From assembly GCF_000426625.1 (NCBI RefSeq), contig NZ_KE384548.1, positions 1,026,703 to 1,090,702 of the forward strand: 64,000 nucleotides of DNA. Direction: 5' to 3'. Below are positions 4,980 through 11,850 of the stretch, piece after piece. The translations under genes were made by a program, and so were the position numbers. The first letter of the stretch is position 1; the number at the start of each line of letters is the position of its first letter. Source of the stretch: Psychrilyobacter atlanticus DSM 19335. GTDB lineage: Bacteria; Fusobacteriota; Fusobacteriia; Fusobacteriales; Fusobacteriaceae. The notes beneath the pieces were generated by a model. It was not told the origin of the DNA and searched no databases. It worked only from the letters and a program-made list of their open reading frames with translations.

Positions 4980-5320
4980 TTTTTCCTCCTATTTATCAGA
5001 TATTGAACTGTAAGACCTGTAGTCACCATGGTAATTATGGTAGTTAATATCATAGTTACTACTATTTTCAATACGTTTCCATTCAGCAGATCTAAAGCGG
5101 AGATAAGTCCTACTCCCGGCGGAATAAAAAATATAGCCAGGTTGAGCAGGATATTATTAGCTCCCTTCTCTACAAAATCTACGTCAATTAATTTTCTTTC
5201 CAGCAAAATAAAGAGTATCAGCATTCCAATGACCGGCCCTGGAAAAGGGAAGTTGATGGATTTACTGATCATCTCTCCTAAGTAAGTTACCATAAATATA
5301 ATGGCATATTGTTTAATCAT
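4976..5320 (-). CDS. lrgA: LrgA/CidA family holin-like protein
   Basis: 114 residues with four membrane helices and the family hallmark FPFPGPVIGMLILFILL (residues 24-40), then FFIPPGVGL. Length is typical for the CidA/LrgA family. It is the first gene of an lrgAB operon, with GAGGTG as ribosome site. Homologues oligomerise in the membrane as holin-like pores or act with LrgB in pyruvate uptake. The promoter region carries a TATAAT box and a palindrome that is also present in front of the queD operon. Confidence 0.93.
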   Translation of the reverse strand: MIKQYAIIFMVTYLGEMISKSINFPFPGPVIGMLILFILLERKLIDVDFVEKGANNILLNLAIFFIPPGVGLISALDLLNGNVLKIVVTMILTTIITMVTTGLTVQYLINRRKK

Positions 5321-5340
5321 GATCTATCACCTCGGGAAGT

Positions 5341-5369
5341 ATTATACCATAAAAGCAACGTGACGTTGC
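5341..5369 (-). promoter_or_regulatory. lrgAB promoter with palindrome copy 2
   Basis: On the minus strand a perfect TATAAT lies at 5346-5341, 20 bases before the lrgA start. The palindrome GCAACG-TCA-CGTTGC (5355-5369) covers the place of the -35 box, for which no good TTGACA is seen. This layout suggests binding by a regulator, though the stem plus TTTT could also be a short leader hairpin. The segment 5370-5586 up to moaC shows no gene. Confidence 0.6.
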
Positions 5370-5586
5370 ATCCAATTAGCTATAAATTTTAAGAGCAGTA
5401 TACCAGAACTTAGCCTTGTCCGCTTCTATAGTTAGAAACTAAAATAGGTGAAACATAAAGTGAGGAAAATCGTATTAAAAAAAGGTATAGTTGGTGTAGA
5501 TTGGCAGCAAAAAAGTTTTTAGATTTATTTTTCTTTCTAGAAATGTTAATATTAGGAGTAAAAAATATATATAATAGGAGTAAAAT

Positions 5587-6063
5587 ATGGGATTTAGTCA
5601 TTTTAAAGATGGAAAAGCTATCATGGTAGATGTAAGTAAAAAAGAGGATACTAGCAGAAAGGCTATAGCCTGCGGGAGTATAGAGGTCAATTCTGAAACT
5701 ATGAATCTCATTGTCAATGGAGGAGTTAAAAAAGGAGATGTTTTAGGAGTAGCCAGAGTTGCTGCCATTATGGCTTCAAAAAAAACTCATGAACTTATTC
5801 CCATGTGTCACCCTCTGCTTCTTACAGGAGCCGACATAGATTTTGAAATAGATCAAAAAAAGTTAATCATATATGCTAAGGGAACTGTTAAAACTACAGG
5901 ACAAACCGGAGTAGAGATGGAAGCTCTTCAGATGGTAAGCACAGCATTATTAACTATTTATGATATGTGTAAAGCCATAGATAAGGAGATGATCATAGGA
6001 AGGATCTATCTAGAAGAAAAAACAGGCGGTAAGAGTGGGAAATTTGTTAATTCTAAGATCTAG
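5587..6063 (+). CDS. moaC: Cyclic pyranopterin monophosphate synthase MoaC
   Basis: 158 residues, the full family length. MoaC turns 3',8-cyclo-GTP into cyclic pyranopterin monophosphate, the second step of molybdenum-cofactor synthesis. Signatures: MVDVSKK (13-19), [21 protein letters not shown] with the catalytic histidines, [11 protein letters not shown] and [11 protein letters not shown] with the active-site Asp and Lys. The ribosome site is a weak AGGAG seven bases upstream. It stands alone, with no moaA, moaE or mog nearby, and is closed by a strong terminator. No Moco riboswitch was recognised in the 260-base upstream gap. Confidence 0.96.
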
Positions 6064-6123: not shown

Positions 6124-7056
6124 CTATATAAAAGCAACAGTATCTACCTTTTTTTTATTAAAGGTACTCAAAATTGAACCTTCTAATTCATCCAATAAAC
6201 CATACTTTTTCCTATACTGTCCCCTCTTTTTACTTGGAACACTCAGTATATCTTTTTTTTCTAGTTCTTCCGGCAGAATCCAAAGGCCCACCTTTGTTTT
6301 TTCAGCATTTAAAGACTCCCAAAAGTTGTCATAACTAGAGTGGATAGTCCTTTTCTTCTTGTACCTCTTGGCAGTATAGACATGCTGATTATTTCCCACA
6401 CATATCTTATCTATCTTCATCTCCAATGATTTTTCAAGAAAATAAAGTGATTCCATCAGAACTTTTTTAGGAAATATTCCATATAAATTTTTGGTAGCTG
6501 TTTTTATTATACTGTGATCCACACCTCTTGGAGCTCCCTGGAGTCCCCCTATGAATACTCTGAATTTATCATTTTTTCTCTGTAGGCTGAAAGTAAGGGT
6601 AGAAAGGGTTATATTCTCTGAATTGGTCAGGATCAGATTAAATTCTCCCTCCTTGTCATAATGGGGATAGAGAGCTAAATTTATATAAAACATCTCAGAG
6701 TTATTGCCGCAGATATCTCCCAACTGAATCTGTCCCTTTGTATAGAGTGATTTCCTCATCTTTTCAGAAAAATGAGTATCTATAAATTCATAGCTGTCTT
6801 TTATTGTATTTAACTTTTCACTCATTTTAAATGAGCTCGACAGGTAGGGTCTATGCATCTTGCTTACTAAGATAGGATATTGATAGACTGTCGAAGAGAG
6901 ATAATCATGCTTCAAGATAAAATTTGTCAGATTATTTACCCAAGGATAATAAAGAAGAGTTCTCAAGGTAAATCTCATCTTCTTTTTTTGTGTATTGAGC
7001 TGACCTTTTTTACTTCCCTGCTTAATTAATTTAGAATAAAAAAATATGTTTTTCAT
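6124..7056 (-). CDS. VirK/YbjX (DUF535) family protein
   Basis: 310 residues. The conserved DUF535 elements are IGGLQGAPRG (near 168-177), KICVGNNQHVY (about 218-228) and SYDNFWESL (about 241-249), and the overall length fits. Enterobacterial members VirK and YbjX are linked to virulence, envelope protein localisation and resistance to antimicrobial peptides, but no biochemical activity is established. It has no signal peptide or clear membrane segment. A GGAGATC ribosome site precedes the ATG. It is convergent with moaC and its 5' side faces the IS3 insertion. Confidence 0.85.
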   Translation of the reverse strand: MKNIFFYSKLIKQGSKKGQLNTQKKKMRFTLRTLLYYPWVNNLTNFILKHDYLSSTVYQYPILVSKMHRPYLSSSFKMSEKLNTIKDSYEFIDTHFSEKMRKSLYTKGQIQLGDICGNNSEMFYINLALYPHYDKEGEFNLILTNSENITLSTLTFSLQRKNDKFRVFIGGLQGAPRGVDHSIIKTATKNLYGIFPKKVLMESLYFLEKSLEMKIDKICVGNNQHVYTAKRYKKKRTIHSSYDNFWESLNAEKTKVGLWILPEELEKKDILSVPSKKRGQYRKKYGLLDELEGSILSTFNKKKVDTVAFI

Positions 7057-7305: not shown

Positions 7306-7716
7306 ATGTCTAAAAAAATATTTTCAGATATAGAAGTTACTAAATTATCTAAAAATAAAAATATTTCTAAAGTTTCAAATAAAGCTATTACATATACTTT
7401 TGAATTTAAAAAGAAATTTATTGAGGAATATAAAATGGGAAAGCCTCCGCGTATAATTTTTGAGGAAGCTGGCTTTGATGTGGATATTTTAGGTATGAAA
7501 AGAGTTGAAACTTCCTCTAAACGTTGGAGGAAAGCTTTTAAAGATAATGGTGAACTGGGTTTAATGGATTCCAGGAAAACATCTTCTGGAAGACCTCTGA
7601 AAAGAGAGTTAACAGATTTAGAAAAAATTAAACGTTTAGAAGCACAGATTGAATATTTAAAAATAGAGAATGAATTTTTAAAAAAGTTAGACGAGATCGA
7701 AAGGGGGGATGCTTAA
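7306..7716 (+). CDS. IS3-family OrfA, helix-turn-helix protein
   Basis: 136 residues. The first two thirds resemble a transposase helix-turn-helix unit (EFKKKFIEEYKMGKPPRIIF, then SSKRWRKAFKDNGELGL). The C-terminus is a coiled coil (KIKRLEAQIEYLKIENEFLKK), the leucine-zipper region through which IS3 OrfA and OrfAB dimerise. AAAGGGG lies 10 bases before the ATG. The gene ends at a G-run (7703-7708) just before the stop, the expected place for a -1 frameshift into orfB. Alone, OrfA usually represses or modulates transposition. Confidence 0.92.
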   Translation: MSKKIFSDIEVTKLSKNKNISKVSNKAITYTFEFKKKFIEEYKMGKPPRIIFEEAGFDVDILGMKRVETSSKRWRKAFKDNGELGLMDSRKTSSGRPLKRELTDLEKIKRLEAQIEYLKIENEFLKKLDEIERGDA

Positions 7717-7766
7717 ATAAAACTGAGATTTTTGAAGCTATTAAATTAATAGTTAAAAGATATAAG

Positions 7767-8618
7767 TTGAAATCAAAAATTAAATTTCTATGTTTTCAAG
7801 CGGGGGTTTCCAGGTCTGGTTTTTACAACTATATTAATTCAGAAAAAAATAGAAATAATAAAGAAGCTAAAGATTTAAACTCCAAAAGATTAATTCTAAA
7901 AGCTTTTAATAGAAGAGGTTTTAAGAAGGGCGCCCGAAGTATCAGGATGATTTTAGAGAATGAATTTGATACTATTTTTAATTTGAAAAAAATAAGAAGA
8001 ATTATGAAAAAATACGAAATAATATGTCCTCACAGAAAACCGAACCCCTATAAAAACATAGCTAAAGCAACTAAGGAACATTCGACTGTCCCTAATATAT
8101 TGAAAAGAGAATTTAAACAAGAAGTTCCTAAAAAAGTTCTCCTAACTGATATCAGCTATCTAACTTATGGAATTGGAAAAAGAGCTTATCTTTCAACAAT
8201 AAAAGATGGTAGTACTAATGAAGTATTAGCTCATGAGGTGTCTCATAGTCTTAGTATTGATATTGCTTTAAACACGGTTAAGCGCTTAGTTAAAAGAAAG
8301 TTTAAACTCCATCCAGAGTGCATTATTCATTCGGATCAAGGCTTTCACTATACTAATCCTAAGTTTCAAAGATTAGTGAAATCAAAGAAAATTATCCAAT
8401 CAATGTCGCGAAAAGGTAACTGTTGGGATAATGCTCCTATGGAGTCATTCTTTGGACATATGAAAGATGAAATAAATTTAAAGCCCTTAAAAACATTAGA
8501 TGATGTAAAGAAAGAAGTATCTAAATATATGAATTATTACAATAACCATAGGTATCAATGGAACTTAAAAAAGATGACTCCTGTGCAATACAGAAATCAT
8601 CTTTTAACAGTATCTTAA
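7767..8618 (+). CDS. IS3-family OrfB transposase, DDE integrase core
   Basis: 283 residues from a TTG. The frame is open further upstream, back through the end of orfA, so the natural product is probably the OrfAB fusion made by -1 frameshifting near 7702-7708. An HTH_21-like region is followed by the rve core. The catalytic triad is visible: Asp in LLTDISYLTY, Asp in IIHSDQGFHY, and Glu in APMESFFGHMKDE. KGNCWDNAP, typical of IS3 OrfB, precedes the Glu. The C-terminus NNHRYQWNLKKMTPVQYR is also canonical. No internal stop or frameshift is seen, so it should be functional. Confidence 0.94.
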   Translation: MKSKIKFLCFQAGVSRSGFYNYINSEKNRNNKEAKDLNSKRLILKAFNRRGFKKGARSIRMILENEFDTIFNLKKIRRIMKKYEIICPHRKPNPYKNIAKATKEHSTVPNILKREFKQEVPKKVLLTDISYLTYGIGKRAYLSTIKDGSTNEVLAHEVSHSLSIDIALNTVKRLVKRKFKLHPECIIHSDQGFHYTNPKFQRLVKSKKIIQSMSRKGNCWDNAPMESFFGHMKDEINLKPLKTLDDVKKEVSKYMNYYNNHRYQWNLKKMTPVQYRNHLLTVS

Positions 8619-8684: not shown

Positions 8685-9344
8685 TTAAATATTTAAGGAA
8701 AATGTTTCAGTAAAAACTAAACTTTCCATTTTTTTTAAAGTTCTCTTTCCAAGGGGAAGAGTCATATTATCATAAAAAACAAGTACTTCTTCTTTAAAAT
8801 CCAGTGATTTAACTTTACTTTTATTGATGATATATCCTCTCTCTACACGAATAAAATTAAGACTCAGTATATTTTCTAATTCTCCCAGAGAGACCTTTGA
8901 AAAATACTCTTCCTTATTAAAAAGAGTAATAATAGACCTTCTCAGGAGTCTGTCATAAGATATATAAGCTATATCCTCTTTTTTTATGAGGGATAGAGAA
9001 GAAGAATTTTCTATCCTCAAATACTCGACACTTTCTTTAAAAAAATCATCTATAACCTTTTCCAACATAATAAAATCTCTTTTGGAGATCATATCGAATA
9101 GAGATTTATTTTTTAGGAGCATCCTAGCTGTTGAAGTCGTTGAATTTCCCATTAAAACCACCGCTTTATTTATAGAGTTCAAATAATTTAATCCACCTTC
9201 TTCAGAAAAGGTTTCATCCAGGATCAAGAGGGAAGTTTCCTTTATTAATTCAGGTGATTTTTTTACATTTAAAAACTCTATTTTTATATTATTACATATA
9301 AGAAGGTAAGTAGAATTACTCACCCAAAGGCCGATTTTGATCAT
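8685..9344 (-). CDS. LytTR-domain transcriptional regulator with a degenerate receiver
   Basis: 219 residues from the second of two nearby ATGs, which is 9 bases from GGAGG; the ATG at 9350 is too close to it. Residues 120-215 form a LytTR DNA-binding domain: EDIAYISYD, the signature FIRVERGYIINKSKVKSLD, and LPLGKRTLKKM. The N-terminal 110 residues have a receiver-like alternation (LLILDETFS, AVVLMGNSTT), but the Asp pocket is not convincing, so signalling may be phosphorylation-independent. It overlaps its upstream membrane partner by 29 bases. LytTR proteins bind pairs of roughly 9-bp direct repeats with a 21-bp period, exactly the pattern found at 11169-11218. Confidence 0.85.
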   Translation of the reverse strand: MIKIGLWVSNSTYLLICNNIKIEFLNVKKSPELIKETSLLILDETFSEEGGLNYLNSINKAVVLMGNSTTSTARMLLKNKSLFDMISKRDFIMLEKVIDDFFKESVEYLRIENSSSLSLIKKEDIAYISYDRLLRRSIITLFNKEEYFSKVSLGELENILSLNFIRVERGYIINKSKVKSLDFKEEVLVFYDNMTLPLGKRTLKKMESLVFTETFSLNI

Positions 9345-11034
9345 GGGCATCCACCTCCTTTATAAGGGTATCTAACTCCTCTAAAAGACTATCTTGAATG
9401 GTTTGTTTGGTCCTCTCATCTGAGATAGAATTATTCAGTATGAGAAGATCTTTTACCTCTATCAATCTGGTTCCTATGGCAAAGTTATCTAAAGAATATT
9501 TTTTTAAATCTATCTCACGGTGATTAATTCTAAGAGCTACTCCAGGAAGTTCATTCATCAGATCCTCTATTGCTTTTCTCTCAAATATTTTAAGTCTGTA
9601 ATAAGGTAATATCTCAAGAGCTATAATACTCTTCTCCTGAGCAATCCCATAAAAAAATATATTTTCCTTAGTACTTTCAATATGTTTAATCCCATCAAAG
9701 TTAACTTTAAGATGGATACTTTTGAGATGAATGATTTTTGAAATTTCATTTTCTATCAAAAATTTTAACTGTGAAATATTCAAAATTTCAGACTCTTTAA
9801 ATAAAATATGATTTAAGGAAAAATGTTGGGATTCCACAGCATTTTTTAAATTGATATAAAGAAGGTCAGTTCCTAGCAATATAATAAGAGCCATAAGGGT
9901 TGATTTAAAATCCCTAGTATAGATAAGATATAGATAGGCTAAAAAAACTATATAATTTACACGACCCATCCACCAAAAAGTTGACCTTAACAATCCGTAT
10001 TCTCTAGAACCTGAAAATACATATGCCTTAAACAATACCAGAATAAATACCGATAGAAATATATATATCTCAACAACACTATCGATCCTTCCATTTTCAA
10101 ATTCATGGAAGGTATAATACCATGTAAATATTGTGGTAAGAAAAGCTACAAAGGAAAAACTTCCTTCATTAAACAATTTAAATTTACGAAATCCCTTTAA
10201 TGGAAACGGCATAGTAGCAATAAATATTATAGTAGATATCATGGGAAATAAAAATTCCCTACTGGAAACAAGAACTATAAAAAACAACATAAATATATTT
10301 GTATTTTTTATGTGTAGCAGGAGATCAAAAACTTTTCCAAAATCCAGAAAAACTAGAGCTCCTAAAAAACCTATTTGGAGAACAAAAAAAAGATTTATGA
10401 GCTTTTTTATGAAGCTCTCAAATGGTATTTTTATCTCTTTAACAACCCATTTCAGCATTGAAAAGCCTAAAAATACTTCAAACAGCAACGATAGTTTATA
10501 TGTAAGTTTCCAGACTTCAAAATCATAATATTTTAACCCGAACATTATAATCCTGAGAGAAATTATGATTAACAGCGACAGAGTCGCTGCTCTGAGAAAT
10601 CTATTTTTTTCTTTATTGATAATGGTTGATGTAAAAAATATAAATATCGTAGATATAAACAACATAGAATATAAAAATATAGATTGTTTTTTATCAAAAT
10701 CTGAAGACTTAAAAAATATCTTTGAAAGTTTTTGATACCCCTCAGTCCGATTGAATTCAATAATTTTTTTCTGGTCTTCATATCCAAGCTCAAGAGTATA
10801 TCTTCCCTTGTCTAACTCAAAAATATAGATATCATCCAAAAAATCTACCATAGGGACATCTATCAAATCATTGTTCTGATCATATATATCAACATCAATT
10901 AGATTATAGATCTCTGGAAGTTTTTCCAAACCGACCTCTAATTTTAGATAATTCCCTGTAGCAGCTGGATGGTATAAAAGTAATATATAGACTAGGGGTA
11001 TAAAAATAAGCCCCAAATATTTTTTTGATTTCAT
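9316..11034 (-). CDS. Membrane sensor-like protein partnered with the LytTR regulator
   Basis: 572 residues. An N-terminal membrane segment or signal (residues 5-24) is followed by about 90 extracytoplasmic residues, then about eight membrane helices (roughly 115-385). The soluble cytoplasmic tail (about 400-572) is rich in ISQLKFLIENEISKI-type helices. The layout resembles 7TMR-type sensors, but no H-box, N-box or G-box of a histidine kinase is recognisable, so it is not a standard LytS kinase. Its stop overlaps the LytTR gene, which implies co-translation and joint function as sensor and regulator. I could not assign a named domain. Confidence 0.6.
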   Translation of the reverse strand: MKSKKYLGLIFIPLVYILLLYHPAATGNYLKLEVGLEKLPEIYNLIDVDIYDQNNDLIDVPMVDFLDDIYIFELDKGRYTLELGYEDQKKIIEFNRTEGYQKLSKIFFKSSDFDKKQSIFLYSMLFISTIFIFFTSTIINKEKNRFLRAATLSLLIIISLRIIMFGLKYYDFEVWKLTYKLSLLFEVFLGFSMLKWVVKEIKIPFESFIKKLINLFFVLQIGFLGALVFLDFGKVFDLLLHIKNTNIFMLFFIVLVSSREFLFPMISTIIFIATMPFPLKGFRKFKLFNEGSFSFVAFLTTIFTWYYTFHEFENGRIDSVVEIYIFLSVFILVLFKAYVFSGSREYGLLRSTFWWMGRVNYIVFLAYLYLIYTRDFKSTLMALIILLGTDLLYINLKNAVESQHFSLNHILFKESEILNISQLKFLIENEISKIIHLKSIHLKVNFDGIKHIESTKENIFFYGIAQEKSIIALEILPYYRLKIFERKAIEDLMNELPGVALRINHREIDLKKYSLDNFAIGTRLIEVKDLLILNNSISDERTKQTIQDSLLEELDTLIKEVDAHDQNRPLGE

Positions 11035-11168
11035 ATTTCCTCCAATAATTTTTTTAGTTTATTATAACATGTATTTTATTGAGATAAAGACTATTTTTAA
11101 CCCCACATACCCTTGCTTACTATTTTTTGTCTCTATTTAATCTTAAAAAAATACTTCTAATGGCAGTC

Positions 11169-11252
11169 TTGTGTATTTTAAAAGTAATATTGTGTATCTT
11201 AATAATATTATTGTGTATGGGATAAATAAAATCATATATTTTATAGTATAAT
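11169..11252 (+). promoter_or_regulatory. Promoter with three 21-bp-spaced TTGTGTAT repeats
   Basis: TTGTGTAT occurs at 11169, 11190 and 11211, each exactly 21 bases after the last (two helical turns). A TATAAT box follows at 11247-11252 and the -35 position is weak, as for an activator-dependent promoter. LytTR regulators (AgrA, ComE) bind direct repeats with this period, and a LytTR gene is the neighbour. The target is the secreted protein at 11287. Confidence 0.8.
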
Positions 11253-11286: not shown

Positions 11287-11850
11287 ATGAAAAGAATTAA
11301 AATTTTATTAGGAATGGTATTCTTACTATCTAGTATGTCATTTGCAACTGGATTTCAATTTAATGTAGCAGGCAAACAGATGCCGGCATCTGAAGATGTC
11401 AGCGGATTAAGACTAAACCTATTTTACGGTAAAACTACCAATATGACTGGTTTGGATATAAACATTTTAGCTTTAGGAGAAACTGATAATTTTACTGGTC
11501 TTCAGTTAAGCCCATTTTCACTTGGAGCTAACAAGGTTAATAACTCATTTAAAGGAGCTGGATTTGGTTTAGTAAATATCCACGGTGGCGAGTCTACAGG
11601 AGCTATTTTTGGATTAGTAAATATGACTCACAATGTAAAAGGTCTTCAATGGGGAGCAGTTAATATCTCTGACGGAAGATCTACAGTTAACCTTGGTTTA
11701 GTTAATATCTCTCAGAGTTCTGCATTTCAAATGGGATTATTTAATATGACCAATGATCTTACAGGGGTACAGTTAGGTCTGATCAACATGGCAAAAACTG
11801 GATTCTTACCAATATTCCCATTCTTTAATATCGATGGAAGAATATTCTAA
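11287..11850 (+). CDS. Secreted LA_2272-type surface repeat protein
   Basis: 187 residues with a clear signal peptide (MKRIKILLGMVFLLSSMSFA, cleavage near 20). The mature part is a series of glycine-rich strands of about 20 residues built around GLxLGLVN: FGLVNIHGG, FGLVNMTHNV, WGAVNISDG, LGLVNISQS, MGLFNMTND and LGLINMAKT. This is the pattern of the LA_2272 surface repeat family known from Leptospira and Fusobacteriota. It probably forms a beta-solenoid-like or outer-membrane-associated structure; function unknown. AGGAGG precedes the ATG, and a strong terminator follows. Upstream LytTR-type repeats suggest control by the adjacent regulator. Confidence 0.82.
   Translation: MKRIKILLGMVFLLSSMSFATGFQFNVAGKQMPASEDVSGLRLNLFYGKTTNMTGLDINILALGETDNFTGLQLSPFSLGANKVNNSFKGAGFGLVNIHGGESTGAIFGLVNMTHNVKGLQWGAVNISDGRSTVNLGLVNISQSSAFQMGLFNMTNDLTGVQLGLINMAKTGFLPIFPFFNIDGRIF

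Follow-up and report, generated by a model that had tools for sequence, protein, structure and literature searches.

The locus of the LytTR regulator and its neighbours

The 64,000-nucleotide stretch of Psychrilyobacter atlanticus DSM 19335 DNA analysed here (the window) carries a LytTR-type regulator gene that overlaps the gene of a large membrane protein and lies next to a divergent surface-protein gene, raising the question of whether the pair is a sensor kinase with its response regulator or a different kind of membrane-to-DNA control. The regulator gene (8685..9350, minus strand) encodes a 221-aa protein with a LytTR domain well above the curated cut-off (PF04397, 6.3e-12, 46 bits vs 22.6), and the membrane partner gene (9316..11034, minus strand) encodes a 572-aa protein with no match in Pfam or NCBIfam. 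The 3' end of the membrane gene and the start of the regulator gene overlap by 35 bp (9316..9350, minus strand), which suggests translational coupling; the overlap is shorter in the genomes G007 and G011. Divergent from this operon is the presumed target (11287..11850, plus strand), encoding a 187-aa surface protein of the VC2662 family (NF047437, 4.1e-52) with LA_2272 surface repeats and a signal peptide assigned by eye. About 10 VC2662-family matches were found in the source genome, some in tandem, including paralogues at G000:C3:939445, 423729 and 382931.

A gene of the DUF535 (VirK/YbjX) family (6124..7056, minus strand; PF04393, 1.4e-73) lies beyond the regulator gene and, judging from gene order, also accompanies the pair in G007, G011 and G041 (the locus L081 likewise has a DUF535 gene, PF04393, 2.6e-75). 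Since it directly follows the regulator gene in G007 and G011, the IS3-type element between the two genes in the window (7306-8618; HTH_Tnp_2 orfA and rve integrase orfB) looks like an insertion specific to the source genome. In addition, the LytTR gene has an LrgA-family gene (PF03788, 4976-5320) about 3.4 kb away, which is also near the pair in G007. The lrgAB genes are controlled by LytSR systems elsewhere; as a target here the LrgA neighbour was rejected, with no TTGTG repeats seen in 5300-5600.

A pseudo-receiver joined to a LytTR domain

The Pfam search of the regulator returned LytTR as its sole match, and the AlphaFold model (pLDDT 86) revealed a (beta-alpha)5 receiver fold (approximately residues 3-108) followed by the LytTR DNA-binding domain (approximately 110-210). 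VIA-align comparison of the model gave a Z of 13 to the LytTR domain of AgrA and Z values of up to 10.8 to REC domains, and the top Foldseek match was full-length ComE. The regulator thus resembles ComE and AgrA in its LytTR fold, and ComE in the domain order of the full-length protein, but differs from both in active-site residues, partner protein and box sequence.

The earlier note on this DNA had held that the regulator lacks a convincing phospho-acceptor, a detail that calls for correction. An Asp is present at the phospho-acceptor position (D45, codon 9216..9218, minus strand, placed by alignment); it is invariant in an alignment of 15 homologues and in the model comes immediately behind strand beta3. 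K90 has the place expected in a receiver, after beta5, and is kept in the window clade, whereas Lys at this position is not conserved across the wider family. The remaining residues, judged by eye against the canonical regulator that this genome encodes at L138, depart from the receiver pattern: V-S-N follows beta1 in place of the acidic pair, and Gly occupies the Thr/Ser position after beta4. Bacterial pseudo-receivers are defined as receiver folds without some of the five active-site residues (PMC12632262), and the modelled N-terminus of the regulator, having neither acidic pair nor Thr/Ser, is classed as a pseudo-receiver by this definition. Most studied pseudo-receivers are orphans (PMC12632262), whereas the one in the window is genetically coupled to a membrane partner.

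A membrane partner with no detectable kinase core

Searches of the membrane partner against Pfam, NCBIfam and PDB profiles gave no match and detected no kinase core, and Foldseek with its model returned nothing below E 0.001. The same Pfam search applied to the canonical LytSR pair of this genome (L138) recovered 5TM-LYT, GAF, His_kinase and HATPase_c, together with the receiver of the partner, so the absence of kinase domains from the window pair is informative. The earlier description of the partner as free of kinase motifs is therefore borne out, and the catalytic core whose discovery was to count against the proposal was searched for in this protein and not detected.

The model of the membrane partner is of low confidence (pLDDT 62), and the domain parts read from it comprise an N-terminal anchor helix, a periplasmic beta-sandwich (residues 29-109), about eight membrane helices (112-416), a cytoplasmic alpha/beta domain (420-512) and two C-terminal helices. 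The order of secondary-structure elements suggests that the cytoplasmic domain may be GAF-like. A multi-pass sensor, a GAF-like cytoplasmic part and an overlap with a receiver-LytTR gene are also features of LytS/LytTR two-component systems (BtsSR, LytSR), but 5TM-LYT and the His_kinase (DHp) and HATPase_c domains of such sensors were undetected in 9316-11034, and the receiver active site, with Asp and Lys kept, is degenerate. The pair is thus, as had been proposed, not a standard LytSR pair.

Three predicted operator boxes before the surface-protein gene

Three copies of TTGTGTAT, predicted to be operator boxes, lie on the plus strand at 11169..11176, 11190..11197 and 11211..11218, at an exact 21-bp pitch upstream of the VC2662-family gene, in agreement with the earlier reading of LytTR-like spacing before a surface gene. 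LytTR-binding repeats are typically 9 bp long with spacers of 11-13 bp and stand 4-11 bp upstream of the -35 element (PMC6193735), and the pitch of the window boxes equals that of such repeats. An inferred -10 hexamer of the target gene (TATAAT, 11247..11252, plus strand) begins 36 bp downstream of the first base of box 3, and no good -35 hexamer was found 16-18 bp upstream of it. From the end of box 3 to the -35 position the distance is about 5 bp, which, together with the lack of a good -35 there, fits activation.

In the 3.54-Mb source genome, zero-mismatch TTGTGTAT-N13-TTGTGTAT pairs were found in the window only. In the congener G007, all three boxes are intact and identical, and conservation extends to the start codon, in contrast to the diverged spacer on the side of the membrane gene; the partner proteins of the two genomes are 86-91% identical. 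The exact triple, its uniqueness in the genome and the conserved footprint in G007 rule out chance as the origin of the boxes. The genome search that had been suggested for defining a regulon accordingly recovered the window pairs as unique and yielded no further members in the source genome: with up to 3 mismatches the matches were at background (44 and 44 vs 50 and 46 for the reversed pattern), and by coordinates none lay just upstream of another VC2662 paralogue, leaving the window copy as the only one of these paralogues with boxes.

Operator-like repeats in other genomes

Searches of 61 Fusobacteriaceae genomes for triple TTGTG at 21-bp pitch gave 8 matches in five genomes, compared with 2 for the reversed control, and all five triple-bearing genomes encode related LytTR genes. 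All eight triples precede genes whose products are probably exported, namely VC2662-family proteins (two), a secreted-protein operon (three), outer membrane protein (OMP) barrels (two) and a weakly metalloprotease-like protein (one). A two-box form, TTTGTGY-N14-TTTGTGY, adds sites in G017, before a YadA-head adhesin gene; in G041, before an OMP and DUF535 unit divergent from the pair; in G058, before an omptin gene 4 kb from the pair; and in G011, before the membrane gene itself, where a -10 is absent at the usual distance. Because matches to the two-box form also occur within coding sequence and in genomes that lack an evident pair, a doublet by itself carries little weight. A second match at G000:C2:989222 (also in G007, G002 and G004) falls inside a ribosomal-protein-like reading frame and was dismissed as chance.

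Counted from the first base of the last box, the best -10 of most operator promoters begins at a distance of 34-36 bp; this rule is broken by the metalloprotease-like and omptin promoters. For the -10 spacing, the summed score of seven non-redundant promoters was 27.0, vs 23.4 for the 99.9th percentile of shuffles. For the other subfamilies of the pair, 21-bp repeats upstream of the membrane gene gave no clear signal save at L081 and L092. In a further group of genomes, where the pair adjoins a subtilase autotransporter gene (checked at L092), three boxes of A(A/T)GTA type can be read at 21-bp pitch, and triple AAGTA/ATGTA occurs in L129, L132, L133 and L134 with shuffle counts of 1-3/2000, which overstate the support because the pattern was tuned by eye. 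A weak triple-like match was also noted at L008.

Related pairs in the Fusobacteriaceae

Profile searches detected relatives of the regulator in 30 of the 61 genomes, and among 20 homologous loci sampled, 17 have a membrane-protein gene immediately before the LytTR gene (one of the 17 being cut by a contig end). The membrane/LytTR system is therefore not a one-off, and related pairs are common in the sampled Fusobacteriaceae genomes. Within the genus of the window, the pair was found in 2 of 8 genomes, which tells against the reading preferred below, though several of the eight are incomplete. Single-sequence comparison divided the membrane proteins into three groups, which hhalign connected with probabilities of 95.8 over 426 columns (window group to largest group) and 94.8 (largest to third group), values that membrane composition may inflate.

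Pairs adjoin genes for a subtilase autotransporter (L089, L092), a TraT lipoprotein (L083) or an OMP with DUF535, and other pairs adjoin amino-acid transport or metabolism genes, so that not every pair serves to control the surface. At L077, L078 and L079, the region preceding the membrane gene also contains a conserved stretch (CTTACCCTTGAAAC...AAGTGCCCCGACGTCTAGAAAT) that genomes share, which is possibly a structured RNA.

Alternative explanations

A close precedent is the LytTR Regulatory System (LRS), exemplified by HdrRM and BrsRM of Streptococcus mutans, in which a membrane protein without a kinase domain accompanies a LytTR regulator and direct repeats at 21-bp pitch stand just upstream of the -35 (PMC6193735). 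All of these features recur in the window and would fit a plain LRS, with a membrane protein that does no more than inhibit and a regulator that drives the operon encoding it. Such a system has a regulator without a receiver domain, a regulator gene that precedes the membrane gene, and repeats with positive autoregulation at its own promoter, whereas the regulator here has a receiver fold, of pseudo-receiver type, and the membrane gene comes first in the window and its relatives, an order also known from Bacteroides LRS-like operons (PMC6193735). Moreover, the three window boxes face the divergent surface-protein gene and not the operon (in G011 the repeats do precede the membrane gene), and the partner is a large protein with predicted periplasmic and GAF-like domains and no family match, DUF3021 and DUF2154 included. 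A plain LRS is accordingly very doubtful. The same genome also harbours an LRS-like locus (L137:1512-2987), in which a short LytTR protein (163 aa) is followed by two small membrane-protein genes, one of them DUF3159/IspA-like; the window system is a third kind in this genome, beside L137 and the canonical LytSR pair L138.

The retention of D45 and K90 leaves room for an undetected phosphorylation route, through which the locus would act as a cryptic two-component system: acetyl phosphate or a kinase from another locus would phosphorylate D45, and the membrane protein would be an auxiliary sensor that modulates the reaction. The invariance of D45 in the 15 homologues, the conservation of K90 in the window clade and the presence of a LytS-type kinase in the source genome are in its favour, but the lack of the acidic metal-binding pair and of Thr/Ser, the lack of conservation of the Lys in the wider family and the coupling of a dedicated membrane partner in most loci make it unlikely. 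It would also be conceivable that the boxes serve another regulator (a canonical LytR-type protein, a short LytTR protein or an unrelated factor) with the pair a mere neighbour, given that the source genome encodes two further LytTR proteins; this, too, is improbable, as boxes occur at or near pairs in the window, G007, G041 and G011 and within 15 kb of them in G058, G054 and G056, and the canonical LytTR type is present in G028, a genome without boxes.

A proposed phosphate-free switch for outer-surface proteins

The reading preferred here, to which we assign a probability of roughly 60%, is that the pair is a kinase-less sensor with a pseudo-receiver-LytTR regulator that works by contact, with no phosphate, and activates the surface-protein gene via the three boxes. 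With its membrane helices and its beta-sandwich in the periplasm, the membrane protein would read a state of the envelope, and its GAF-like cytoplasmic part would control the LytTR protein by contact with the pseudo-receiver and with no phosphotransfer, by either inhibition or stimulation. Once freed or activated, the LytTR protein could bind the three boxes, spaced by 21 bp, from one face of the DNA and bring RNA polymerase to a promoter with a -10 and no good -35, turning on the surface-protein gene. The computation establishes the genes, the lack of a detectable kinase, the pseudo-receiver fold, the boxes with their conservation and the repeated occurrence of pair and operator at exported-protein genes; the binding to the boxes, the contact between the two proteins, the activation at the promoter and the nature of the signal are inferred. 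Direct membrane-to-DNA control of this kind is plausible by analogy, since LytTR Regulatory Systems show that a LytTR activator can be under the control of a membrane protein that has no kinase domain (PMC6193735).

Extended to the family, the proposal would be that a phosphate-free class of sensor/pseudo-receiver-LytTR pairs governs outer-surface proteins (adhesins, omptin, autotransporter proteases and OMPs) across the Fusobacteriaceae via three-box 21-bp operators, with the box sequence drifting while the pitch and the -10 spacing are kept. This wider reading is advanced tentatively, at a little under even odds.

A literature search on Fusobacterium and LytTR, with most subscription papers outside its coverage, returned no study of the window system, and the membrane/LytTR pair with its sites before outer-surface genes points to an undescribed way of setting the surface of the Fusobacterium family. 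How pseudo-receivers switch without phosphate has been described as unknown (PMC12632262); as the pseudo-receiver here has one genetically linked membrane partner and a defined putative operator, the system makes that question directly testable. If the regulon is true, surface adhesins and proteases of the Fusobacteriaceae would be under a common control system.
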